From a virus: a stretch of DNA of 53,901 nucleotides. The translations under genes were made by a program, and so were the position numbers. The DNA lies in IMG/VR virus record IMGVR_UViG_3300042261_000981, positions 1 through 53,901 of that record, one strand, 5' to 3'. The notes under the pieces were generated by a model. That model was given only the letters and a program-made list of their open reading frames with translations, was not told the origin of the DNA and made no database searches. Positions 91 to 53,040 of this stretch are shown in pieces (position 1 is the stretch's first letter; every line of letters begins with the position of its first letter).

Positions 91-102
91 CTATATATTA
101 AA
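91..102 (-). promoter_or_regulatory. Phage promoter element TTTAATATATAG
   Basis: Reads TTTAATATATAG on the minus strand, five bases upstream of the ATG at 86. It overlaps the last codon of the topoisomerase gene. The same element precedes many genes here; promoter function is inferred from recurrence and position. Confidence 0.5.
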
Positions 103-1996
103 ATTTTATTTTAGATTTCAATTCATGTAATTCACCTAACCAAATATCTGATTCTGAAGTGTTTTCTAATTTCTTGTGTTTCTCTCTTAATTTATCATAT
201 TCGTCTTTTATTTCTAAAAGTCTGTCTTTTGTTAATGAAGAAATAGACATTCCTAAAAGATAATGATAACTCTCATCGACTCTTTCGAATTTATGTTTTT
301 CTAATTCAGCATCAAGAATATCTTTAGATTTTTTATAAACTATAATATCACCATCAATAACTAATTTAAGAAATCTTATCTTATTATGTGCGATTTTAAT
401 TTCTCTACTTAATTCTTCTAATAGATATATCTTTCTCTTCACATAATAATCCATTCTTATATTGTAAAAATCTTCTAATATTTCATATTGATCATTATAT
501 TTTTTAATTTTACAGTTAGAATCAAAAAGATGCATATTCTTTGTAGATATGTATGTCTCAAGATTTAACTTCTTATAAATATTATTACCATCAAAAAGAT
601 TATCCATCATTTCTTTGGATAAAACTAATTTTATATCAATGACTTGATCTGTGCAATTTTTAACGTAGTCTTTAATTATTTTATCTTCAATAAGTTTATC
701 AAGTTTCTTGAAATACTCATCATTCCACATCCCTATAGGTAATTCTGTAATTCTAATTACATTAGCATTTGGTTTATCATACACTCCTCTTGTTATATAT
801 CTTCCATTTTCTATATCGTGTATTATTTCTCCCTTAAATCCTTTATAAAAAGGTAAAACTTCTTTGGTTTTCTTTCCTTGTATTCTATTAGATAAATAAG
901 ATATTAAATCTAATGGATTGAACATAGGAACATTTGAAGAATATCCTGTTCCAACACCAAAAGCCCCATTAACTAATGCCATAGGAATAATGGGAACATA
1001 ATATTTTGGTTCGATTGGTGCACCATCATCATCTAAATAATCAAGAATATCATTATCTTCTTTCCTGAAAATATAACTAGTTATATCACTTAATCTTGTG
1101 AAGATATATCTTGGTGAAGCACTATCACTCCCACCTTTTATACGTGAACCGAATTGTCCTTTTGGGGATAATAGATTTATATTATTAGTTCCAACAAAAT
1201 CTTGAGCCATTCCAACGATAGCTTCTTCTAATGAAGTATTGCCGTGATGATAAGCTGCCATATCTATAATTGCTCCTGAGAGAGATGAGACCTTGATCTC
1301 CGAATGAATATTCTTTTTTATTAAAGTATAAAACGCTTTGCGTTGTCCAGGTTTGAATCCGTCTATCGTGTTAGGTATTTGTCTAACATTATTATACATA
1401 GAGAACTCCATAAGTTCGTTATTTATGAACTTATCGTATGTTTGCTTTGTGCTTAATTTGTCTGTGAAATCTATTGGTTGATATAATTTGAGCCAATCTT
1501 TACGATCATCTGCCCTTTTACCATTGAAGAGCATATCCATCAAATCTTTTGTCTCTTCTTTATCATAGTGAAAACGGATGAGATGTTTATTGATTTTCTT
1601 GAAAAACTCTTTCATCTCATCAGGTTCGATGGTGCCAAGACCTTTTATCCATTTAAGATCATAACCACGCAGATTACTTTTATCTTTTTGATAATCAGAT
1701 AATTTATAATAGTATTTATAAGTTTTTCCTTTTGTCGCTTTTATTATAGGAGTTGCGAAGTCATATACAAAATCCATATGAAGAAGTTCTGGCCAATAAG
1801 TATCAAAGAGGTTCATTAGAAGACCTCTGATATGGTTGCCGTCACAATTATGGACTAATATATTATCTTTTTGATTTTTGGAGATATAGAATGTGTTGTC
1901 GTCTTCAACTTCTATATCATACATTATTGTATCTTGGGTGAGTGTTTGTATGTTATCTATGTCTAAAATATCAAAATCGTTAGGGTTTAACTTCAT
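98..1996 (-). CDS. DNA topoisomerase II, C-terminal part with C-terminal split-intein half
   Basis: Second half of a fractured type IIA topoisomerase (632 aa). Residues 1-50 look like the C-terminal half of an intein: a block F-like stretch (YDIEVEDDNTFYIS) and a block G-like end (NILVHN followed by Cys51), with the penultimate His and terminal Asn used in splicing. Residue 51 onward (CDGNHIRGLL) continues the toprim DxDxDG motif that breaks off in the gene at 5597-7375. The rest matches the breakage-reunion (GyrA/ParC/gp52-like) region; the catalytic Tyr is about residue 297 in SPRYIFT, as in eukaryote-type topoisomerase II. Trans-splicing would give one chain of about 1,080 aa that relaxes or decatenates DNA. 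The two genes lie on the same strand about 3.6 kb apart. The split intein is inferred from motifs. Confidence 0.88.
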   Translation of the reverse strand: MKLNPNDFDILDIDNIQTLTQDTIMYDIEVEDDNTFYISKNQKDNILVHNCDGNHIRGLLMNLFDTYWPELLHMDFVYDFATPIIKATKGKTYKYYYKLSDYQKDKSNLRGYDLKWIKGLGTIEPDEMKEFFKKINKHLIRFHYDKEETKDLMDMLFNGKRADDRKDWLKLYQPIDFTDKLSTKQTYDKFINNELMEFSMYNNVRQIPNTIDGFKPGQRKAFYTLIKKNIHSEIKVSSLSGAIIDMAAYHHGNTSLEEAIVGMAQDFVGTNNINLLSPKGQFGSRIKGGSDSASPRYIFTRLSDITSYIFRKEDNDILDYLDDDGAPIEPKYYVPIIPMALVNGAFGVGTGYSSNVPMFNPLDLISYLSNRIQGKKTKEVLPFYKGFKGEIIHDIENGRYITRGVYDKPNANVIRITELPIGMWNDEYFKKLDKLIEDKIIKDYVKNCTDQVIDIKLVLSKEMMDNLFDGNNIYKKLNLETYISTKNMHLFDSNCKIKKYNDQYEILEDFYNIRMDYYVKRKIYLLEELSREIKIAHNKIRFLKLVIDGDIIVYKKSKDILDAELEKHKFERVDESYHYLLGMSISSLTKDRLLEIKDEYDKLREKHKKLENTSESDIWLGELHELKSKIKF

Positions 1997-2981: not shown

Positions 2982-2993
2982 CCCCCTTTTCTT
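2962..2993. terminator. Bidirectional palindromic terminator
   Basis: A perfect 32-bp palindrome: AAGAAAAGGGGGTTAT and its exact complement. A G/C core is flanked by A and T runs. It lies at the convergent ends of the endonuclease and methylase genes and overlaps both stop regions, so it should terminate transcription from both sides. Confidence 0.8.
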
Positions 2994-4098
2994 ATTTTTC
3001 TAAAACATATAATAATTCTTTAACTTTTATATTTCTATCTGTTAGATTTCTCGATGCTCTATAAGTATTATAATCTTTTTCAAGTAAAGTTAATCTACCA
3101 TTTTTCTCCATTATCTCTTTAACTATATCAGTTGGTATAATTCCTTCATTATTATAAGATAAAAGAATAAATTTCGATTTAGTATTTTCAATCAGATCAT
3201 TTAAAGATTTAATAGCGGATTCTTTTTTATTATAATTTGATTTCTGCCAATCTTTTGGTATTCCAGATACTTCGCTTATTTCTTTTGGATATTCATAATT
3301 TAGAATTGTATTTAACATATGATAATTCGAACCGTATGGATGTTGATTGTATGGTGGGTCGTAATATGTCAGATCTATTTCTTTTTTCATAGATTTAACT
3401 AATTCGTTAATGTCTTTATTTAAAACTTTAACTTGACATTCATTATCAGAAAATATGGGATATTCCAAGTTGATTTCCCCCATTATTCTCACAAGAGCAT
3501 TTTCACCATCGCCTCCAAATTTTCCTATTCCAGTTGATTTACTTTTATAAAAACCTTTGAATACTCCACCCGTATTATTATTTATAGAAGCCTTTATTAG
3601 TAATGGCGATATTAAAAATTTTTCAACACCTTCATCTAATTTATACTCTGTTATTGTCCTTCTTATATTGTCTATGATTTTAGCGTTCTCGTTTGTATAA
3701 AAACATCTTTCGCCAGATTGTGGATTTTTTGTGTCTTTCGGTGAATATAGTTCTTCTATTATACCTACATTTAAATCTGTTCTATTTTTTTTAATATTTA
3801 AATCATCTATATAATGTCTTATTAGTTTTTCATCTACTTCAGATTTATTTGACAAAAAACAAGAGTTTATAACATAAGAATATTCTTCAAAATCATTGGA
3901 TATAAGAATATTAGAATGTTGTTTTAAATATCTACTCACAACACCAGAACCAGCAAACCCGTCTAATGTTGATAATTTATCTTTATTTAATATGTTTTTA
4001 ACAAGTTGAATTCCATCATCAATGAATGACAATAAACTTCTTTTGTTTCCAATATATGTTATTATTTGGTCGGTTAAGAATTTTTGATTTTCTGGCAT
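2992..4098 (-). CDS. D12-class DNA adenine N6-methyltransferase
   Basis: A 368-aa methylase. Near the N-terminus, ITYIGNKRSLL is the D12-class motif X, LDGFAGSGVVSRYL is the SAM-binding FxGxG motif, and TYYDPPYNQHPYGSNYH near residue 250 is the catalytic DPPY motif. It transfers a methyl group from SAM to adenine N6. It pairs with the convergent EcoRI-like endonuclease and should protect phage DNA from it. Several GAATTC sites occur in the window, so protection would be needed if that is the target. The gene directly upstream on the same strand (4110-4268) encodes a ribbon-helix-helix-like protein that may regulate the pair. M.EcoRI itself is a different methylase class, so the pairing is mosaic. 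Confidence 0.85.
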   Translation of the reverse strand: MPENQKFLTDQIITYIGNKRSLLSFIDDGIQLVKNILNKDKLSTLDGFAGSGVVSRYLKQHSNILISNDFEEYSYVINSCFLSNKSEVDEKLIRHYIDDLNIKKNRTDLNVGIIEELYSPKDTKNPQSGERCFYTNENAKIIDNIRRTITEYKLDEGVEKFLISPLLIKASINNNTGGVFKGFYKSKSTGIGKFGGDGENALVRIMGEINLEYPIFSDNECQVKVLNKDINELVKSMKKEIDLTYYDPPYNQHPYGSNYHMLNTILNYEYPKEISEVSGIPKDWQKSNYNKKESAIKSLNDLIENTKSKFILLSYNNEGIIPTDIVKEIMEKNGRLTLLEKDYNTYRASRNLTDRNIKVKELLYVLEK

Positions 4099-5596: not shown

Positions 5597-7375
5597 TTAT
5601 TCTTTCTTTTTCAGAACTTTATCAGTTTTTAATATATCATTTGCTTTCAACATCACAACTTCATTTCCTCTCAATATAGGCAGTTTGTGATTTTCGCCAA
5701 AAGAATATATTTCACCATTTATAGTGATATTCACAACATTAGTTTTAACAGATTTAATTATGTTCTTAACTTTTTTCCATCTATTATTATGAGTAAAGAC
5801 ATAATCTTCATAAGTAATATCTTTAATTGGAACATATCCCCTTTTAGTTAGAACTAATGTATTTTCATCTATACAATCAGCGTCTGCCATTAAAACCACT
5901 TTCCCATATCTCAATTTTTTCAAATCAGTATATTTTTTACCGAATTCAAGTCCCAATATGTTTATTATGTTTTTAATTTCTTCATTATCTTTTAATTTTC
6001 CCATATTAACATCTCTGACGTTTAATGGCTTACCTTTTAATGGGAAAACTCCATAGTAATCTGGATCTGGAACAGAAGATAGTCCAGCGATTACTGAAGA
6101 ACTAGCACTATCACCCTCAGCCAAGAAAATCATACACTTCTCTGACTCCGCCGTTCCAGCTTTTGCAGCGTCGTCTAATTTTCCTATTTTTACTTTAGAT
6201 TTGGCTATATCTTTTTTAGCATCGAAATCTTCTTTAATCATAAGAAATCTAAGAAGTTCTTCTATCATTTCTGATGTTGCTATCTTTTTAATAGTAGTAT
6301 CTGAAACTTCTGGAGCAGTTACTTTACTTATTAAATTTTCTTTAGATTGTGTATCGAATACAGGATTAACTACTTTAGAATTAACAAATATAAATAAATG
6401 ATTTTTAATGTCATTTTGTTTTACATTTAATTTCTTATTCCTTTTCAGTAAATTTTCTTGTATTCTTTTTGTTATTTGGTTGGTAACAGAGTTTACGTGT
6501 GTTCCACCATTATATGTAGATATACCATTAACCATTGATATTTGGTTAAATGAATTGTCTAATGATCTAGATACTCCAATTTCCCATTTATCATCTAGTT
6601 TTTCATAGAACATTTCTTGTTCACCAACGAACATTTCCATGTAAGATTTGAAATTCTTTGTTGGGATGAGAACATCATTATAATATACTTTGACTTTATT
6701 ACAATATACAGATACATCAATACATCTTTTTATCATGATTGATTCGATCTCTTCATCGATACCACTTAGCTCAAAACGTGCAAAATCAGGATAAAAAGTA
6801 ATTTTAGTATATTGTTTCTTACTCGCCTTTATTTTAGGTTTATTTATCTTATTTAAATTGTCTTCAAATACTTGTTCATATTTCTTCTTACCATCACACG
6901 TCTCAAGTATGAACTTCTTGGAAAAGATATTGGTTAGTTTGGCTCCTAGACCATTCTTTCCGCCCCATGTTCTTTCGATATTATCGTCAAAATTTTCTCC
7001 TGCTAGGAGATGTCCGAATATTAATTCTGGAATATAACATTTTTCTTTTGTGTGCATTTCAACAGGAATACCACTTCCGTCATTTTCAACTGATATTGAA
7101 TCTTTTGTTACATTAACTTTTATGTATTTGACATCACCACTACGAATATAGTGATCTGATGCGTTGGTGAGAATTTCATCGAATAATTTAAGGAAGCCAG
7201 GATTGAAGTTAGTGGGTTTATTAACTATTTTAATATTATTAAGATCTTTTGGATCTTCTACTACGAATAGATTTCTTGTTTCCGTAATGACTGATCCAAC
7301 GTATGTATCTGGTCTTAGAAGGACGTGTTCTTTGTGTGTAAGTTTTTGATATTTTTCTGAATTGCTTTTAACCAT
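5597..7375 (-). CDS. DNA topoisomerase II, N-terminal part with N-terminal split-intein half
   Basis: First half of the fractured topoisomerase (592 aa). Residues 1-500 carry the GHKL ATPase (EILTNASDH near 68, ENDGSGIPV near 97, GGKNGLGAKL near 138), the transducer and the start of the toprim domain (AEGDSASSSVIAG near 430, VVLMADAD near 495). At residue 501 (codon 5875-5873) the protein enters a sequence with N-intein features: Cys1 followed by IDENTLVLTKRGYVPIKDI and a block B-like GENHKLPI with its His. It ends after 92 intein residues. The exteins meet as ADAD | CDGNHI, restoring DxDxDG. Each half alone lacks an intact toprim metal site, so activity should need trans-splicing with the product of 98-1996. 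Confidence 0.9.
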   Translation of the reverse strand: MVKSNSEKYQKLTHKEHVLLRPDTYVGSVITETRNLFVVEDPKDLNNIKIVNKPTNFNPGFLKLFDEILTNASDHYIRSGDVKYIKVNVTKDSISVENDGSGIPVEMHTKEKCYIPELIFGHLLAGENFDDNIERTWGGKNGLGAKLTNIFSKKFILETCDGKKKYEQVFEDNLNKINKPKIKASKKQYTKITFYPDFARFELSGIDEEIESIMIKRCIDVSVYCNKVKVYYNDVLIPTKNFKSYMEMFVGEQEMFYEKLDDKWEIGVSRSLDNSFNQISMVNGISTYNGGTHVNSVTNQITKRIQENLLKRNKKLNVKQNDIKNHLFIFVNSKVVNPVFDTQSKENLISKVTAPEVSDTTIKKIATSEMIEELLRFLMIKEDFDAKKDIAKSKVKIGKLDDAAKAGTAESEKCMIFLAEGDSASSSVIAGLSSVPDPDYYGVFPLKGKPLNVRDVNMGKLKDNEEIKNIINILGLEFGKKYTDLKKLRYGKVVLMADADCIDENTLVLTKRGYVPIKDITYEDYVFTHNNRWKKVKNIIKSVKTNVVNITINGEIYSFGENHKLPILRGNEVVMLKANDILKTDKVLKKKE

Positions 7376-16819: not shown

Positions 16820-16839
16820 TCAAAAAAGGAGAATTAAAA

Positions 16840-17229
16840 ATGTCGTAGATTCACAACAAGTTAATTACTGTAGCAAGACAAGATCTTACCCCAGGCTATC
16901 AAGCCACACAGGCAACTCACGCCGCATTATTATTCGCACAAGAATTTCCGTAGATTTATAAAGAATGGTCAAAAGACCCATATTTAGCTTTGCTTTCTAT
17001 TAAGAATGAGCAAGAGCTTATAAATCTCATTTCCAAATTAGAAAAATCCAAAATTAAATTTTCAGTCTTTAGGGAACCTGATATTAACAATCAGATTACC
17101 TCAATTTGTATTGAACCTTCTGAGGCATCAAGAAAGGCTACTAGTTCTTTGCCTAAAATGTTAAGAGATTTAGCGACTGAAAATCAAATAGATAAAAATA
17201 ACTGTTTACAAAAGGAGGAAGTATTATGA
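16840..17229 (+). CDS. PTH2-type peptidyl-tRNA hydrolase with two in-frame UAG codons
   Basis: Under the standard code this gene is broken. Reading UAG as an amino acid gives one 129-residue protein of normal length for peptidyl-tRNA hydrolase 2. UAG codons sit at residue 3 (16846-16848, after ATG TCG) and residue 38 (16951-16953, after TTT CCG). Between and after them the PTH2 pattern is intact: KLITVARQDLTPGYQATQATHAA, then DPYLALLSIKNEQELINLI and a final SEASRKATSSLP. PTH2 frees tRNA from stalled peptidyl-tRNA. Two tRNAs with CUA anticodons lie 1-2 kb downstream on the same strand, so UAG is probably decoded (Gln is likely by analogy with other recoded phages). Full product would then depend on suppressor tRNA. 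The next gene overlaps its stop (ATGA). The alternative is a pseudogene. Confidence 0.72.
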
Positions 17230-17390
17230 AGAATCAAGAAATATGGGAAATAACAGAGAAAATCATCAGTGCTATGAAATATTTAAATCAATTAAAAGAT
17301 GAAGACAGAAAAAAAATTTTTTGGAGAGATTTAGAGGAAGATTGGTTTGATTATTTAGAAAATAAAATAAACGGAGGAGATAAAGAATGA
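17226..17390 (+). CDS. Small acidic hypothetical protein in PTH2 operon
   Basis: A 54-aa protein, helical and rich in Glu, Lys and Trp (MKNQEIWEITEKIISAMKYL at the start). It has a strong ribosome site (AAAGGAGGAAG) and 4-base overlaps with both the PTH2 gene and the gene at 17387, so the three are translationally coupled. No family recognised. Confidence 0.55.
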   Translation: MKNQEIWEITEKIISAMKYLNQLKDEDRKKIFWRDLEEDWFDYLENKINGGDKE

Positions 17391-17686
17391 AAATAGAAGA
17401 ATTGGATATAATGTATAGTAATCATGTAAAAGTATTTAGAGATTTTTTTAATAAAAATTTCAATGGGGATGAAAATAATCTATTAGTTTTTCCAGAAGGT
17501 GATAATCTATCTATAGAATGGATATTCAAAGACTATCGTTATGGATTTTATATAGATTATGAAATTGAAAAATCATCATTCTATTTTGTATCAAAAGAAA
17601 AATATGGAGAATTAACAATATCATGCTTATTAAATGATGAATGCAGTTCGGATTTAATAAAAATAATTAACAAAAGAATATCATAA
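17387..17686 (+). CDS. Hypothetical protein in PTH2 operon
   Basis: A 99-aa protein with a helix then beta-rich middle (NNLLVFPEGDNLSIEWIF, YGFYIDYEIEKS). The preceding gene supplies a GGAGGAG ribosome site. It looks like a small alpha/beta domain, but no family is recognised. Its place right after PTH2 and the 54-aa gene suggests a role in the same process, unproven. Confidence 0.5.
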   Translation: MKIEELDIMYSNHVKVFRDFFNKNFNGDENNLLVFPEGDNLSIEWIFKDYRYGFYIDYEIEKSSFYFVSKEKYGELTISCLLNDECSSDLIKIINKRIS

Positions 17687-17701
17687 AGAAAGGAGGACGA
17701 T

Positions 17702-17725
17702 ATGTCGTAGGTAAAGCCGCCATAA
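17702..17725 (+). other. Mini-ORF ATG TCG UAG ... with strong Shine-Dalgarno
   Basis: AAAGGAGGACGAT places a strong ribosome site before ATG TCG TAG, the same first nine bases as the PTH2 gene. If UAG is decoded the peptide is MSxVKPP, ending at TAA (17723). If not, it is a two-residue ORF. It lies about 95 bases upstream of the gene at 17819 and could be a leader that senses UAG decoding. It could also be the remnant of a longer gene. Confidence 0.35.
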
Positions 17726-17818
17726 GGTGTAAAGTAAAATCAGCAAAACAAGTTTAATCATTATCGACTTGTAAATTAAAGATGATGAAACATTTATAAC
17801 AAAAATAAAATTAAAATT

Positions 17819-18232
17819 ATGAAAACAACAACAAACGCTGGTGTTACGTACACCTACAATAAATATGAAGTTATTGAAAAAATCAACAAAACTATTGCTT
17901 TAATTGAAGCTTGGATTAGTGAAAACAATTATCAAATATCAGGTAAAATTGATAGGAATCTTGAAGATAAATGGAGTAATTTATCTAAGAGTCAGGTGAA
18001 GAAAATTCAGAGATATTGTTTTTGGATTGAAAGAAAACCTTCTTTAAGAAATGTTAATACATTCTTTGGTATTTTGTCTAAATATTTCAAAATTGAAAGA
18101 GTTCATGTTAAGATTTCTGCCAAAGAAGAAGCCATTCAAAAATCCAGAAAAGAATGGATTAAAGCAAGAAATGAAGCCGATAAAGCTTTGAAGGCATACA
18201 AAGCAGAGAAAGGCGATTTTTATAAAAAATAA
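17819..18232 (+). CDS. Hypothetical basic helical protein
   Basis: A 137-aa lysine-rich protein, mostly helical (VIEKINKTIALIEAWISEN; a long C-terminal helix with EEAIQKSRKEWIKARNEADK). No known domain; nucleic-acid binding is plausible from charge. It stands alone between the mini-ORF at 17702 and the first amber tRNA. Confidence 0.5.
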   Translation: MKTTTNAGVTYTYNKYEVIEKINKTIALIEAWISENNYQISGKIDRNLEDKWSNLSKSQVKKIQRYCFWIERKPSLRNVNTFFGILSKYFKIERVHVKISAKEEAIQKSRKEWIKARNEADKALKAYKAEKGDFYKK

Positions 18233-18256
18233 TTTTTTTAGTTTAGAATAATTTAA

Positions 18257-18264
18257 TATCTTTG
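18257..18264 (+). promoter_or_regulatory. Bacteroidetes-type -7 box TATCTTTG before amber tRNA
   Basis: TATCTTTG matches TAnnTTTG, 22 bases upstream of the mature 5' end of the first tRNA. A short hairpin GCCTATC/GATAGGC follows it and precedes the tRNA. Confidence 0.45.
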
Positions 18265-18286
18265 CCTATCGTATGATAGGCAAAAT

Positions 18287-18359
18287 CCGACAGTAGCTCA
18301 GTTGGTAGAGCGGAAGCCTCTAGATCTTCAAGTCGCGGGTTCGAATCCTGTCTGTCGGG
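18287..18359 (+). tRNA. tRNA with anticodon CUA (amber suppressor type), no. 1
   Basis: A complete cloverleaf: acceptor CCGACAG/CTGTCGG (7 bp), D stem GCTC/GAGC, anticodon stem GAAG(C)/(T)CTTC with one mismatch next to the loop, loop CTCTAGA with U33 and anticodon CUA, a 5-base variable loop, and T arm GCGGG-TTCGAAT-CCTGT with two G-U pairs. Discriminator is G; CCA is not encoded. CUA pairs with UAG. The short variable loop argues against bacterial Leu, Ser or Tyr identity, and G73 is compatible with Gln among others. The UAG-containing PTH2 gene lies 1.1 kb upstream. Confidence 0.9.
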
Positions 18360-18373
18360 CAAAAATAAATAAT

Positions 18374-18781
18374 ATGCTTAAAAAGAACGAATTTAACGCT
18401 TTAGGTGACATTACTGTAGAAGAAGCCTGTAGATTTGGTCTTTTAGAAGAAATGTCAGGAACTCAAGTTCAAGAAAAATTTGGTAATTATATTCCATATT
18501 CTGATGGAAAAACAAGACTTGGTAAGGAAGTCACTGTTGGGGACAGTCTTGTATACTGGGATATTAGAAAAAAGGGGAATATAAAAGGAAGTACTACACC
18601 AAAAGACAAATTAACAGTTGGTTCGAAATATGAAGTTCAAAAGGTAAGTTGGAATGGAAATAGAATAACTGTTATTAATGATCTTGGCAAAAAATCTGTT
18701 GTTGGGACAGATAGGTTTGTTTTTGAAAATAAAAAAATAATTTCACCGATTGATCCTTACGGGGAAGAGTATTGGTATTAA
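18374..18781 (+). CDS. Accessory protein with C-terminal DPYGEEYWY
   Basis: A 135-aa protein; ATG at 18374 is chosen because the longer open frame runs through the tRNA. It starts MLKKNEFNALGDITVEEACRFGLL and has a beta-rich middle (VGDSLVYWDI, GSKYEVQKVSW, NRITVINDLG) like a small SH3 or KOW-type barrel. It ends IDPYGEEYWY. It sits between two amber tRNAs. Function unknown. Confidence 0.6.
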   Translation: MLKKNEFNALGDITVEEACRFGLLEEMSGTQVQEKFGNYIPYSDGKTRLGKEVTVGDSLVYWDIRKKGNIKGSTTPKDKLTVGSKYEVQKVSWNGNRITVINDLGKKSVVGTDRFVFENKKIISPIDPYGEEYWY

Positions 18782-18786
18782 AATAA

Positions 18787-18861
18787 CGGATAGTAGCTTA
18801 GATTGGTCTAAAGCGGTAGTCTCTAAAACTACCATCGTGGGTTCGAATCCCACCTATCTGA
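18787..18861 (+). tRNA. tRNA with anticodon CUA (amber suppressor type), no. 2
   Basis: A complete cloverleaf: acceptor CGGATAG/CTATCTG (one G-U pair), D stem GCTT/AAGC, perfect anticodon stem GTAGT/ACTAC, loop CTCTAAA with anticodon CUA, a 4-base variable loop, and T arm GTGGG-TTCGAAT-CCCAC. Discriminator is A; CCA is not encoded. It differs from tRNA no. 1 in discriminator and stems, so the two may be charged with different amino acids. Both read UAG. Confidence 0.92.
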
Positions 18862-20578: not shown

Positions 20579-21133
20579 TTATTTCTCCCACCAGTTTTCT
20601 TCACCATAAGGATCTATACCTTTCATCTTTGTTTCAGTATCTTTTTTGATCCTTTCATATTCTTCTCTTTCGACTTTTATTTTAGATCTAAGTTGAGATT
20701 TTTCCTCCTCTCCAATATCATTGGCTTCATATTTATTAAAAATATTTATAATCTTATCTTGTTTAACAAAAGTTAATGTTCCTTGATCTGGTCCGCCTTC
20801 TACATTTGCAATTATAAGAGATTTCATCATGTCTGAAATTAAATATAAATCTCCATAACTATATCTATCATTATCGCCATATAAACTACCAGATTTTACA
20901 TACCCCTTAAATCTCTTTATGAAATTTTCAATATAATCATAAGGTAATATAACCTTTGGTCCAGTCTCTCCTTTTTTAGGTCTGGGATATTCTCTTCTAT
21001 TGTCCTCAGCATATCTTTTTCTTAATGCATCTAGATTTGAATAGACAAAATCATCAACATCAAATCCATTTGGTACTAAAATAACGTAGCTAGTTGAGCT
21101 ACTATTACTTACAAATCCACTTCTTATTTTCAT
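20579..21133 (-). CDS. GFVSNSSSSSF-type paralogue 4 with DPYGEENWW tail
   Basis: A 184-aa protein starting MKIRSGFVSNSSSTSYVIL and ending GIDPYGEENWWEK. The KIRxGFVSNSSSSSF N-terminus is widespread among phage and bacterial proteins of unknown function. It is the last of four head-to-tail paralogues (22620 to 20579), each overlapping or nearly touching the next. The middle is charged with no recognised domain. The Ser-rich start is conserved across the four, while the bodies diverge strongly. Confidence 0.65.
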   Translation of the reverse strand: MKIRSGFVSNSSSTSYVILVPNGFDVDDFVYSNLDALRKRYAEDNRREYPRPKKGETGPKVILPYDYIENFIKRFKGYVKSGSLYGDNDRYSYGDLYLISDMMKSLIIANVEGGPDQGTLTFVKQDKIINIFNKYEANDIGEEEKSQLRSKIKVEREEYERIKKDTETKMKGIDPYGEENWWEK

Positions 21134-21663
21134 AATTCGTCAAATTTTTTAATTTTATTAGATTCTTTCATATCTAATCCATCTTCATCGTCCCACTCTT
21201 CCTCACCGTAAGGATCATGAACTTTCATTTTATCTTTTAATATTTCTCTTTTAAGTTTTCTTTCTGATGCTTTATCTTTATACTTGAAAATGTCTTCTTT
21301 ATGTTTATTTTCGATGACATTCATCTTATCCATTTCTCTTTTACTAATAAGTTTTATTATGCCCGATTCCTCTTGACAAGCTTCGTATGCAATAAAGATA
21401 ATATAATCATTAAGAAGTGTTTGTAATGGCAAAAACAATCTATTTTCGTATTCATGGCAAATACCATCCTTTATGAATTTTTTAATATCAGACTCTTTAA
21501 GGGTATTAACATTGTTATAATCATCCATATAAACTTTTTTCTTGCCTTTGTTCTTATCCAAGAATGCTTCTTTGGCTGTATCAAAATCAAAATCATCTGG
21601 TAAATATACCAAAATGAAAGATGATCCGCTACTATTACTTACAAATCCTGTTCTTATTTTCAT
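21130..21663 (-). CDS. GFVSNSSSSSF-type paralogue 3 with DPYGEEEWDD
   Basis: A 177-aa protein starting MKIRTGFVSNSSGSSFILVY, followed by LPDDFDFD as in paralogue 2. A coiled, charged middle leads to VHDPYGEEEWDDED about 30 residues before the C-terminus, which ends SNKIKKFDEL. The end KIKKF(D/K)EL is shared with paralogue 2, confirming recent duplication. Overlaps both neighbours by 4 bases (ATGA). Confidence 0.65.
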   Translation of the reverse strand: MKIRTGFVSNSSGSSFILVYLPDDFDFDTAKEAFLDKNKGKKKVYMDDYNNVNTLKESDIKKFIKDGICHEYENRLFLPLQTLLNDYIIFIAYEACQEESGIIKLISKREMDKMNVIENKHKEDIFKYKDKASERKLKREILKDKMKVHDPYGEEEWDDEDGLDMKESNKIKKFDEL

Positions 21664-22226
21664 AATTCTTTAAATTTTTTTATTTTGTGTGATTCATCAA
21701 TTGGTCCTCTTTCTAATTCGTCTAATGTATCTGGCACCTTATCTAAATCTTCATCCCAATCTTCTTCACCGTATGGATCATGCTTGATCATTTTATTTTT
21801 AAGATATTCCCTTTTTTTCTTTTTTAATCCAGCTAAGTCCTTGAATTTTCTAGTATTATCAGAGGATAAGGAATCCATATTGGCGAATTTATCAAATAAT
21901 CTCTTATCTACTCTTTCTATCCTGTCATAACCTTCATAATCCAATGTAGTTTCATATACAACATAATCTTCAAAAAAGAAAGATATATCATAAAAATCCA
22001 TTCTACCTCTTCTTCCTTTCTGAACAAAAAGATCAATATCTTCCTTTTTTAATGCTCCAAGAAAATTTTTAATATCATGATAATTACCAAAATCTTCATG
22101 CTCTTTATTTTTATACTTATCCAACATGTATTCTACATGAGAATCATAATCAAAATCTGGCGGAATGTATAACAATACAAAAGAAGATGAACTACTATTA
22201 CTTACAAAACCTGATCTTATTTTCAT
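21660..22226 (-). CDS. GFVSNSSSSSF-type paralogue 2 with DPYGEEDWDE
   Basis: A 188-aa protein; the start at 22226 is chosen so that it begins MKIRSGFVSNSSSSSFVLLY like its paralogues, rather than at an upstream Met. IPPDFDYDSHVEYMLDKYKN follows. KHDPYGEEDWDEDL lies about 40 residues from the end, which reads SHKIKKFKEL. Closest relative is paralogue 3. Function unknown. Confidence 0.65.
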   Translation of the reverse strand: MKIRSGFVSNSSSSSFVLLYIPPDFDYDSHVEYMLDKYKNKEHEDFGNYHDIKNFLGALKKEDIDLFVQKGRRGRMDFYDISFFFEDYVVYETTLDYEGYDRIERVDKRLFDKFANMDSLSSDNTRKFKDLAGLKKKKREYLKNKMIKHDPYGEEDWDEDLDKVPDTLDELERGPIDESHKIKKFKEL

Positions 22227-22242
22227 CAAATAATATTTTTTT

Positions 22243-22620
22243 TTAATATCGATGACTGATATATTCATCGTCGACTTCAACTACATTAGAAAGAAACCAC
22301 CCCATATCAAAATTATCCATAATAGTATATACTTCTATAGTATTTTCTTTTTCTTCAACATCCCAACTATCATATGGCTCAATACCATACATGAGATTTC
22401 TTATCTTTGTACCAAATAAATCAGTATCATTCTCATCCCAATTTTCTTCACCATAAGGATCATCATCAGAATAAACTCTCTCAGATTCACTATACATAAG
22501 TTTATTACAAACATCCAAATGATTCTTAATCATTTCTATTTGCTCTTCGTTTAGTCCTTCCTTTTTAATTATATAACTAGAAGAACTACTATTACTTATA
22601 AAATATAATCTTAATTTCAT
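22243..22620 (-). CDS. GFVSNSSSSSF-type paralogue 1 with DPYGEENWDE
   Basis: A 125-aa, shortest member, starting MKLRLYFISNSSSSSYIIKK. DDDPYGEENWDEND is central. The C-terminal third is acidic with alternating hydrophobic residues (ENTIEVYTIMDNFDMGWFL). It is the first gene of the array in transcription order. Confidence 0.62.
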   Translation of the reverse strand: MKLRLYFISNSSSSSYIIKKEGLNEEQIEMIKNHLDVCNKLMYSESERVYSDDDPYGEENWDENDTDLFGTKIRNLMYGIEPYDSWDVEEKENTIEVYTIMDNFDMGWFLSNVVEVDDEYISHRY

Positions 22621-40865: not shown

Positions 40866-41275
40866 TGGATAATTTAATGAAATATTCCATCTTCGAACAA
40901 CAAATATCATTTAGAAAAGATGGTGAACTTACATTCTTTACTAAAAGAAAAGATATAAAAATTGATATAGAATTACCAGAAAGTAATGCTAAAGGGCTAA
41001 TGTTTAGAAAAAATCTTCCAAATAATGCTGGTATGTTATTTGAATTTGAAGGTGAAGAAATTCTATCCTTTTGGATGAAGAATACATATATTCCTTTAGA
41101 TATAATATATGTCGACGCTAGACATCAAATAGTAGATATAAAACACGCTAAACCTTTAAGTACTAAATCTCTTCCATCAAAAAAACCAGCCAAATACGTT
41201 GTTGAAGTAAATGCTGGTTTTTGTGATGAAAATAATATAGGAGAAGGAGATTTTATGGATTATTCTATAATTTAA
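40865..41275 (+). CDS. DUF192-family protein
   Basis: A 136-aa protein with the DUF192 pattern: KGLMFRKNLPNNAGMLFEF, SFWMKNTYIPLDIIYVD, then KPLSTKSLPSKKPAKYVVEVNAG and the closing GEGDFM. DUF192 proteins are small beta barrels of unknown function, found in bacteria and archaea and sometimes in phages. The start MDNLMKYSIFEQQIS resembles the targeting-like signal and replaces the usual leader. Confidence 0.78.
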   Translation: MDNLMKYSIFEQQISFRKDGELTFFTKRKDIKIDIELPESNAKGLMFRKNLPNNAGMLFEFEGEEILSFWMKNTYIPLDIIYVDARHQIVDIKHAKPLSTKSLPSKKPAKYVVEVNAGFCDENNIGEGDFMDYSII

Positions 41276-42528
41276 TCTAAATATTTTATTTTCCACCCCT
41301 TATGATTATCATATTTGCCTTCTAGAACATAATAAACATTTCTTCTACATAAATTATGATCTTTACAGAATTGATTTAATGAATGATCTATATATTCCTT
41401 GCCTTCTGGATCTATAAATAGAATTTTTCTTACAGAAGACATTTTTATTTTTTTATTACTTTCTGATATTTTTTTCTTATGATCTTCTGTTTTATATTTT
41501 ATTATATCTCCGTTATAACTTTTCAAGTGTATTGAATTATTGTCTTTATATACAACATTATCTGGATAAAGGGGAATTTTTCCAGATTTAGTGTCAATTA
41601 TATAAGTTGGTATGGCATAGCCACTAGTCCAACCTCTTAAACTAGATATGATTTCTAAACCTTTATCTAAGCTAGTTCTAAAATGAGATGAACCAAGTAT
41701 TTTATCTGTTTGATAAATATAATAAGGAACTACACGATTTATTAATAATTTGTGCATTAATTTTCTCATAGTATCCACGTCATCGTTAATTCCTTTGAGG
41801 AGAACTGTTTGTGAACGCATAACGATACCACAATCGGCGATTTTATTTAATGCTATTGAACACTCATCTGTTATTTCATCTGGATGAATAAAATGAATGC
41901 TAAGGTATAATGGATGATATTTCTTTAATATATTAAGAAGTTTATCATTGATTCTACTGGGAAGAACAACAGGAACTTTAGTTCCAATTCTTATCATTTC
42001 GACGTGTTTTATCTTTTTAATTTCACTTAAAAGAAATTCTATCTTATCATCAGGTAGAGTTAAAGGATCTCCACCTGAGATTAAAACGTCTCTAATTTCT
42101 GGATGTTCGGATATGTATTTAATACCTTCAATCCATTGTTCTTTTTTATAGTTGTTTTTATCAAAAATACGTGATCTAACACAGTATCTACAATTTGTAG
42201 AACAAAAATTTGTTACTATGAATAATACCCTATCTGGATATTTATGTATGATGCAATCAGTTTTTTTGTATTGGTCTTCAGCGAGAGGGTCTTCATTTTC
42301 ATCTGGAGACACATTGAATTCATCAATAGTTGGTACTACTGTTCTTCTAAGGGTATCGTTATCTTTAACGACGTTTAAGAAATATGGTGTGATTCTTAGA
42401 GGTAGGTTATTTACATTGGTGAGATTTTCTTCTTTTCTTAACTTTAGATTTTCTTTTAATTGTTGCAAATTCTTTATTGAGGTAGCAACTTCTTTGAGCC
42501 AGACATCCTCCGCATCAATTGTTTTCAT
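41272..42528 (-). CDS. Lysine 2,3-aminomutase-like radical SAM protein with homing-endonuclease-type tail
   Basis: A 418-aa protein. Residues 1-330 are KamA-like: FIVTNFCSTNCRYCVRS (CxxxCxxC cluster), DVLISGGDPLTLPD, IRIGTKVPVVLPSRI and YLSIHFIHPDE. KamA enzymes shift an amino group on lysine using PLP, SAM and an iron-sulfur cluster, and the related EpmB acts on EF-P, so a target in translation is possible. The last about 80 residues are different: HKKKISESNKKIK resembles NUMOD3, and HSLNQFCKDHNLCRRNVYYV with GWKI resembles the IENR/NUMOD helix-turn-helix of phage homing endonucleases. The tail may be a footprint of a homing endonuclease or a recruited DNA-binding module. Confidence 0.8.
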   Translation of the reverse strand: MKTIDAEDVWLKEVATSIKNLQQLKENLKLRKEENLTNVNNLPLRITPYFLNVVKDNDTLRRTVVPTIDEFNVSPDENEDPLAEDQYKKTDCIIHKYPDRVLFIVTNFCSTNCRYCVRSRIFDKNNYKKEQWIEGIKYISEHPEIRDVLISGGDPLTLPDDKIEFLLSEIKKIKHVEMIRIGTKVPVVLPSRINDKLLNILKKYHPLYLSIHFIHPDEITDECSIALNKIADCGIVMRSQTVLLKGINDDVDTMRKLMHKLLINRVVPYYIYQTDKILGSSHFRTSLDKGLEIISSLRGWTSGYAIPTYIIDTKSGKIPLYPDNVVYKDNNSIHLKSYNGDIIKYKTEDHKKKISESNKKIKMSSVRKILFIDPEGKEYIDHSLNQFCKDHNLCRRNVYYVLEGKYDNHKGWKIKYLD

Positions 42529-52648: not shown

Positions 52649-52655
52649 AAATATG

Positions 52656-53040
52656 TGGACCCGCGGGGATTCGAACCCCGTTCCAACACTGCCTTTAAGA
52701 AATGTACTACAAGTTTATTTGATTTTTCTACTATCAACAAAATATTTAATTCTATGGGTCGAATTAAAAATTACCGAAACCGTTAATATTTATCCTCTAA
52801 ACGGAATTTGTAGAATAGAGTTTACTGAGTTTTGCTTCGGCTTACGCTAAAATCAAATCTTCGACTAAAGATTCAGTATAAACTTTGCCAGTCAAAGAAG
52901 TGGGGATACTCATGATATCCTCAGCGTTCATTTTATAATTGCCATTTATTGTTTACCTACATACTTGTAAATCGCTTTATAGACATTGCGATACTTGCAA
53001 TTTCGCTATTTCTCATTGCTGTCTAAAGCCTGTCGGGCCC
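52656..53040 (-). ncRNA. ssrA: tmRNA (SsrA RNA)
   Basis: A 385-nt RNA on the minus strand. The 5' GGGCCCG (53040-53034) pairs with 3' CGGGTCC (52663-52657) to form the acceptor stem, with G-U at the third pair, the alanine identity mark of tmRNA. The 5' GACAGGCTTTAGACAGC stretch and the 3' TAAACTTGTAGTAC stretch are conserved tmRNA sequences. The T arm is CGGGG-TTCGAAT-CCCCG (52664-52680). The discriminator is A; CCA is not encoded. tmRNA with SmpB rescues stalled ribosomes and tags the nascent peptide. SmpB is not in the window and would come from host or elsewhere. Proposed tag reading frame is given separately. Confidence 0.88.
52842..52943 (-). other. Proposed tmRNA tag reading frame (33 codons)
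   Basis: A frame inside the tmRNA starting at GGC (nt 98 of the RNA, after AAACAATAAAT) and ending GCG TAA. It begins GNYKMNAEDIMS and ends SLVEDLILA. The position of the GGC and the upstream A-rich stretch fit Bacteroidetes-type resume sites (tags starting G). The tag would be 34 residues with the tRNA-borne Ala, far longer than the usual 9-12, and ends LILA rather than ALAA. A second possible resume codon in the same frame is GAA at 52862-52860, directly after TAGTC as in E. coli, giving the short tag (A)EDLILA. Confidence 0.5.

Follow-up and report, generated by a model that had tools for sequence, protein, structure and literature searches.

The stretch of DNA analysed here (the window) comprised positions 1 to 53,901 of IMG/VR record IMGVR_UViG_3300042261_000981, a virus fragment of 53,901 nt with a G+C content of 28.7%. 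It carries a gene for a PTH2-like protein whose open reading frame (ORF) is gated by in-frame UAG codons, a leader micro-ORF gated in the same manner upstream of a further gene (orf17819), and two suppressor tRNAs with the anticodon CUA. The suppressor tRNAs are probably dedicated regulators of the PTH2-like gene and, by way of the leader, on which ribosomes are predicted to stall, of orf17819, with UAG acting as an ordinary stop codon elsewhere; the probability of this reading was put at about 0.8. It was reached by comparison of related loci, which points to a conserved gate, a cognate tRNA, coding constraint behind the gate, a matched codon swap and, in a subset, a hidden start codon, and from which we infer the level of decoding, the arrest, the induction and the purpose. 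A wider form of the reading is held with less confidence, although it is still favoured: the phage suppressor tRNA may be a regulatory signal sensed by stop-gated arrest leaders and by the PTH2-like protein, making up a tRNA-monitoring regulon that is found in phages of several bacterial phyla and leaves the code unchanged. The switch seems to recur in many unrelated large bacterial viruses, with the tRNA serving as the on-switch for a few genes. The features of the window are given below, where designations such as L015, L017 and L021 denote PTH2-bearing loci from viral contigs and named phages.

16827..16831, + strand: AGGAG Shine-Dalgarno sequence of the PTH2-like gene, rare in the window
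16840..17229, + strand: stop-gated PTH2-like gene, 129 aa if UAG is read, MS-[UAG]-IHNKLITVARQDL... (PF01981, AF2, Foldseek)
16846..16848, + strand: in-frame UAG at codon 3 of the PTH2-like gene, the conserved N-terminal gate, also in relatives
16951..16953, + strand: second in-frame UAG, codon 38, also in L021 and at the matching place in L017
17226..17390, + strand: small ORF with a strong Shine-Dalgarno sequence, directly after the PTH2-like gene
17387..17686, + strand: small ORF with a strong Shine-Dalgarno sequence
17702..17725, + strand: leader micro-ORF ATG TCG TAG GTA AAG CCG CCA TAA, read as M-S-[UAG]-V-K-P-P-stop, Shine-Dalgarno sequence AGGAGG at 17691-17696
17708..17710, + strand: UAG gate of the leader micro-ORF
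17819..18232, + strand: orf17819, 137 aa, helical, downstream of the leader
18287..18359, + strand: suppressor tRNA 1, anticodon CUA (ARAGORN; Rfam RF00005, 60.4 bits)
18787..18861, + strand: suppressor tRNA 2, anticodon CUA (ARAGORN; Rfam RF00005, 62.4 bits)

As claimed in a first-pass annotation of the window, the ORF at 16840-17229 is complete only when the UAG codons at positions 3 and 38 are read, and the stretch from the first TAG to the core of the domain contains no in-frame start codon. The translated protein matched Pfam family PF01981 with 29.6 bits (cut-off 23), and comparison with 2zv3 using hmmsearch gave an E-value of 8.5e-10. The AF2 model had a pLDDT of 88.5 and Foldseek matched it to the Pth2 structures 2zv3, 3erj, 1q7s and 1xty (E 2.3e-7, TM up to 0.75); the N-terminal end that bears the UAG lies outside the fold and is the least confident part of the model apart from the C-terminal tail. 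The catalytic residues of Pth2 are the Lys of GKxxAQ and the Asp of DAG. At the corresponding places the gated family contains GYQATQ and EPD, and since the Pth2 fold is kept while both catalytic residues are lost the protein is named PTH2-like here and no hydrolase activity is claimed. The description of the gene product in the first-pass annotation as an enzyme that releases peptidyl-tRNA is therefore uncertain; its proposal of a switch centred on PTH2 was close to the mark. The huge phage LR756501 (735 kb), collinear with the window at about 75-87% nucleotide identity, has a PTH2 that is 87% identical, shares both TAG codons and likewise carries two CUA tRNAs, so the double amber of the window is no base-calling accident. 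Strong Shine-Dalgarno sequences are limited to the gated cassette (16820-17725), where they belong to the PTH2-like gene, the micro-ORF and the two ORFs between them, and are absent from about 80 other genes.

The position of the N-terminal stop was compared across PTH2-like loci, which numbered 85 after they had been made nonredundant at 95%. UAG was found at codons 2-9 in 61 of these (31 at codon 3) and UAA in a further two, in viruses whose hosts include Mycobacterium, Tenacibaculum, Acinetobacter and enterobacteria. The first-pass annotation had named unrelated bases at these places in sister PTH2 genes as evidence against decoding; the opposite was seen, with the N-terminal stop being conserved. 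The proteins of viral contigs begin MS[stop]IHN (window), MT[stop]VKK, MG[stop]IHQ, MTH[stop]V, MEHT[stop]G, MK[stop]INE and MKDT[stop]IA, and those of named phages MK[stop]IT (Tenacibaculum pT24), V[stop]V and M[stop]V (mycobacteriophages), MAQ[stop]NEK (Cronobacter GAP32), MTH[stop]NDK (Serratia BF), ML[stop]NKH (Salmonella Arash) and MT[stop]IHE (Acinetobacter ME3). In 55 of the 61 UAG loci no start codon occurs from the stop to the core, so that reinitiation cannot yield PTH2 there. XacN1 and RAS14 encode an HD-PTH2 fusion with PTH2 as the C-terminal domain and UAG as the third codon of the whole fusion ORF (ATG AAA TAG in XacN1), which indicates that the stop tracks the start of the ORF and not the domain. 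Fusion of PTH2 with an HD-type domain occurs in both orders (L024, L006, L030, L031), as PTH2-HD in pT24 and L006 and as HD-PTH2 in XacN1 and RAS14.

A blind scan for a start codon followed by 0-4 codons, a UAG and a long ORF with no early restart returned PTH2 alone in both Arash and pT24, and among the loci found by a query with orf17819 the PTH2 was stop-gated wherever one was found. Many of these phages also contain canonical Pth2 paralogues, which score about 100-118 bits to PF01981, keep GK and DAG and are ungated, while the gated family scores 24-42 bits. Internal UAG codons were present in the PTH2 of L017 and L018, with a CUA tRNA 9-16 nt downstream; L017 has no N-terminal stop and its internal UAG corresponds to codon 38 of the window. 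In the annotations of BF and Myrna the gene is either missing or given a downstream start. A genome scan and a viral scan, one of each, returned nothing. When IMG/VR was scanned for an exact 14-mer, most matches were due to chance, but the informative L156/L168 also emerged, and L156 contains at 85-160 a second, interrupted PTH2 copy which again starts ATG ACG TAG.

Both tRNAs of the window were confirmed by ARAGORN and Rfam RF00005 to have full folds and CUA anticodons, as first reported. A CUA tRNA was in reach at 49 of the 61 UAG loci, within 3 kb at 45 of them; in the control for tRNA linkage, 79 random viral contigs with a similar combined length, there was none. The isolate genomes of Myrna, Arash, pT24 and ME3 (165-235 kb) each contain a single nonsense-suppressor tRNA, which lies 0.5, 1.2, 2.6 and 0.6 kb from PTH2, respectively. 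The nearest isotypes of the suppressor tRNAs are mixed, with no single isotype and no common ancestry, which suggests that the function has been conserved and not one tRNA gene. Decoding of the PTH2 UAG is strongly supported by the comparative data, and it is probably carried out by the linked CUA tRNAs, as the first-pass annotation had proposed. In L078, L079 and L091 the tRNAs beside an ungated PTH2 have the loops CTTCAAA or ATTTCAAC, corresponding to UCA (opal-type) anticodons.

The leader micro-ORF, upstream of orf17819 and the tRNAs, had been overlooked in the first-pass annotation. Its Shine-Dalgarno sequence and ATG-TCG-TAG start at 17702 are conserved in a relative, and the closest relatives contain a micro-ORF M-x-[UAG]-I-K-P-P-UAA between PTH2 and orf17819 and a suppressor tRNA after orf17819. 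The Lys and Pro codons of these leaders differ almost solely at the third base (AAG/AAA, CCG/CCA, CCN), from which it follows that the codons behind the UAG are constrained as coding sequence. The segment ATGTCGTAG at 17702 had also been considered as a purely structured RNA (an H-type pseudoknot, two sequences), which gave weak z-scores; this was replaced by the micro-ORF because further homologues showed synonymous codon changes.

A pattern of Shine-Dalgarno sequence, ATG, one codon, any of the three stops and a Pro-Pro-stop ending was scanned for in 1.43 Mb of PTH2-like loci and 1.51 Mb of background. This gave, as descriptive counts, 12 distinct leaders in the loci (14 rows, including one nested start and one likely chance match on the opposite strand of L018) and 0 in the background, and the first stop was always UAG. 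In other lineages a broader scan revealed micro-ORFs that end in RGPT, RAPP, KAPP, RPP or RAPT, such as MM[stop]ILRAPP[stop], MK[stop]IIRGPT[stop] and MKHL[stop]IHPRPP[stop]. The broader motif with UAG as the first stop occurred 62 times on the PTH2 strand (53 distinct by end) and 3 times on the other, while the UAA-first (9/14) and UGA-first (12/11) controls had no strand bias. Ribosomes of tested bacteria stall at Pro-Pro before a stop (PMC3985003) and at RAPP/RGPP motifs (PMC12992588).

The gene downstream of the leader, orf17819, is conserved between the leader and the suppressor tRNA in the closest relatives and gave no sequence match in Pfam, NCBIfam or the PDB and no fold match. Of 13 leaders of orf17819, 11 have immediately past their second stop a sequence (GTTTCCATAA) that base-pairs with the following gene's start (TTATGGAAAC). 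This pairing outranks all of about 200 other windows in those 11 and is present in 95.5% of cells, compared with at most 48% when slid, and L018 has the same start pairing made from unrelated sequence (TTTCGATTGTC/GACAATCGAAATGG). Covariation of the hairpin did not exceed a shuffle control, with one compensatory pair being observed, because the hairpin columns hardly vary; the hairpin is supported by the slide control, by the rank test and by L018, whose hairpin is unrelated in sequence.

A change of stop codon in one locus gave a further comparison. In L015 the PTH2 starts ATG ACG TAA, the tRNA after orf17819 has the anticodon UUA, and the leader is ATG ACG TAA GTA AAT AAA CCA CCG TAG, so the gate, the tRNA and the leader terminator are, as judged from the sequence, changed together. 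Lak-B5, from a group known to recode UAG, contains a UUA tRNA, a leader M-E-L-Q-H-W-[UAA]-V-T-C-D-R-G-P-UAA and, in PTH2, what may be a UAA gate; this case is weaker because it is single and has an internal ATG.

The suppressor tRNA would, under the favoured reading, license a small regulon, acting on PTH2 itself and, by way of the leader, on orf17819. When the tRNA is absent PTH2 translation would end after two residues, and when it is present the full protein would be made. On a leader of the form M-x-[UAG]-...-(K/R)PP or R(A/G)P(P/T)-stop the ribosome would exit at the UAG if there is no suppression, whereas with suppression it would meet the proline arrest motif and, judging from that motif, linger. 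A ribosome lingering at the second stop, where it can arrive only if the UAG has been suppressed, would mask the 5' arm of the pairing seen in most close relatives, free the next start and so turn the gene on. The favoured purpose is a checkpoint, by which functions that handle tRNA would be turned on only once a phage tRNA has been made and charged and is outcompeting RF1; the direction would be a positive feed-forward.

Several alternatives were weighed against this arrangement. The most serious, although it is clearly the less likely account, is that PTH2 is linked to the suppressor tRNAs as a repairer which frees peptidyl-suppressor-tRNA after drop-off or overshoot, the UAG setting the dose (homeostasis) and the gate being secondary. 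Peptidyl-tRNAs of two to five residues are prone to drop-off, the protein has a Pth2 fold, and an ungated PTH2 still adjoins a CUA tRNA in L087/L088 and others; yet the canonical catalytic residues are not kept, an ungated canonical Pth2 is also present in many of the phages, and the leader upstream of orf17819 is left unexplained. It is improbable that PTH2 is made by leaky termination, host near-cognate readthrough or reinitiation with the tRNAs as passengers of tRNA arrays. The GTG directly behind the UAG in mycobacteriophages and the 12 of 61 UAG loci with no CUA tRNA in reach would fit such an origin, but not the 55 loci with no start codon before the core, the position of the sole suppressor tRNA next to PTH2 in the four isolate genomes, or the matched change to UAA and UUA.

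Even less probable is a genome-wide reassignment of UAG (code 15), in which every UAG is read as an amino acid and PTH2 is merely one affected gene. Lak and crAss-like phages reassign UAG in this way, the first-pass annotation had drawn this parallel, and its observation that UAG is rare as a stop was borne out, with 3 of the 77 ORFs of 60 aa or more ending in it and two of these three (8799 and 30796) being doubtful calls. The coding density of the window is, however, essentially the same with code 11 (0.880) and code 15 (0.891), no convincing gene apart from PTH2 requires UAG, and the terminator of the leader differs from its gate stop. Isolate relatives with the gated PTH2 use UAG as a common stop, ending 75 of 192 ORFs in Myrna, 33 of 252 in Arash, 33 of 282 in pT24 and 30 of 300 in ME3; genome-wide code 15 was therefore rejected, and for these four phages it is refuted. 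There is very little likelihood that UAG inserts one special, pyrrolysine-like residue needed by PTH2: ARAGORN labels the CUA tRNAs tRNA-Pyl, but judged by their nearest isotypes they do not share an ancestor, the UAG falls in a low-confidence tail outside the fold, and UAA takes its place in L015. That the interrupted genes are pseudogenes or assembly errors, as their omission or shortening by annotators might suggest, is practically negligible and is refuted because the genes are conserved, with their downstream frames intact, in isolates and metagenomes that are independent of one another.

Regulation by the suppressor tRNAs remains the favoured reading, and a number of observations count against it or narrow its reach. 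A GC-richer clade (L075-L091) has no N-terminal stop, yet suppressor tRNAs (CUA or UCA-loop) are often beside its PTH2, so the link between PTH2 and tRNA is not one of gating alone; an alternative gated gene was looked for in this clade and none was found. The PTH2-like gene is also ungated in RaK2 and Aeromonas 65, as it is in LR745208, an exception in which a UUA tRNA is present. Twelve of the 61 UAG loci had no CUA tRNA in the stretch examined, and the mycobacteriophage GTG makes reinitiation possible in those phages. In L015 UAA terminates 15 of the 21 called genes, so suppression there must be partial or tolerated. The regular expression for the leaders was written after the first examples had been seen and the loci are related, so the scan numbers and P values are descriptive. 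The arm that pairs with the start codon is absent in the window, in L021 and in most of the distant leaders, so the evidence for release of the start comes from phages other than that of the window.

The arrangement resembles several known systems. As in the code-15 phages Lak, crAss-like and phAss-1, a phage CUA suppressor tRNA would decode UAG; in those phages in-frame UAG occurs in many genes, whereas here it is confined to one PTH2-like gene and a leader and UAG is a normal stop elsewhere. Lak-B5 appears to have a UAA/UUA version of the gated system. The TnaC, SecM and RAPP leaders (PMC3902921, PMC10951233, PMC12992588) are likewise short upstream ORFs on the same strand with a proline arrest motif and RNA structure hiding a downstream start, the structure being found here only in a subset. 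Unlike them, the leaders described here have very short peptides and an arrest predicted from the motif, which would be gated by a stop codon readable only by the phage suppressor tRNA. The fold of the PTH2-like protein is that of archaeal and eukaryotic Pth2, from which it differs in being stop-gated and in not conserving the catalytic Lys of GKGK and Asp of DAG. In tRNA-dependent lysogeny (PMC10865867) a phage decision also requires a phage tRNA, but there it replaces a host tRNA lost on integration; the analogy was rejected, as the paper describes no suppression of a stop codon, amber or otherwise.

Large phages commonly carry nonsense-suppressor tRNAs, and where such phages use the standard code the target of these tRNAs had been unknown, as stated for the jumbo phage XacN1, which has CUA tRNAs for which its authors could not find a target (PMC5852040). 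The HD-PTH2 fusion is likely to be that target, and the gated PTH2 offers a concrete target and a testable reason for the retention of suppressor tRNAs. No report of either a gated PTH2 or a suppressor-gated leader turned up in searches of open-access PMC papers, and a survey of jumbo phages lists PTH2 with no mention of a stop. Gating explains why the gene has been missed or truncated in many phage annotations. If correct, the reading would describe a natural layer of gene control that joins a stop codon, the tRNA matching it and a peptide that arrests ribosomes into a single switch, for which the matched UAG-to-UAA swap provides built-in evidence, and the switch would offer a tRNA-controlled expression device.

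Other features of the window were also noted. A tmRNA at 52653-53040 (- strand; Rfam, 75.6 bits), missed in the first-pass annotation, is predicted to encode a tag of 33 residues (GNYKMNAEDIMSIPTSLTGKVYTESLVEDLILA), which is unusually long. A type II topoisomerase subunit is split by a natural split intein into halves at 5597-7375 (- strand) and 98-1996 (- strand), about 3.6 kb apart and with a D12 DNA methyltransferase (2992-4098, - strand) between them; the N half ends MADAD|CIDENTLVLTKRGYVPIKD... and the C half begins ...NQKDNILVHN|CDGNHIRGLL. Four adjacent ORFs at 20579-22620 (- strand) have in common the start motif MK(I/L)R..F(V/I)SNSS(S/G)S, and the product of 41272-42528 (- strand) is a radical SAM protein resembling lysine 2,3-aminomutase.

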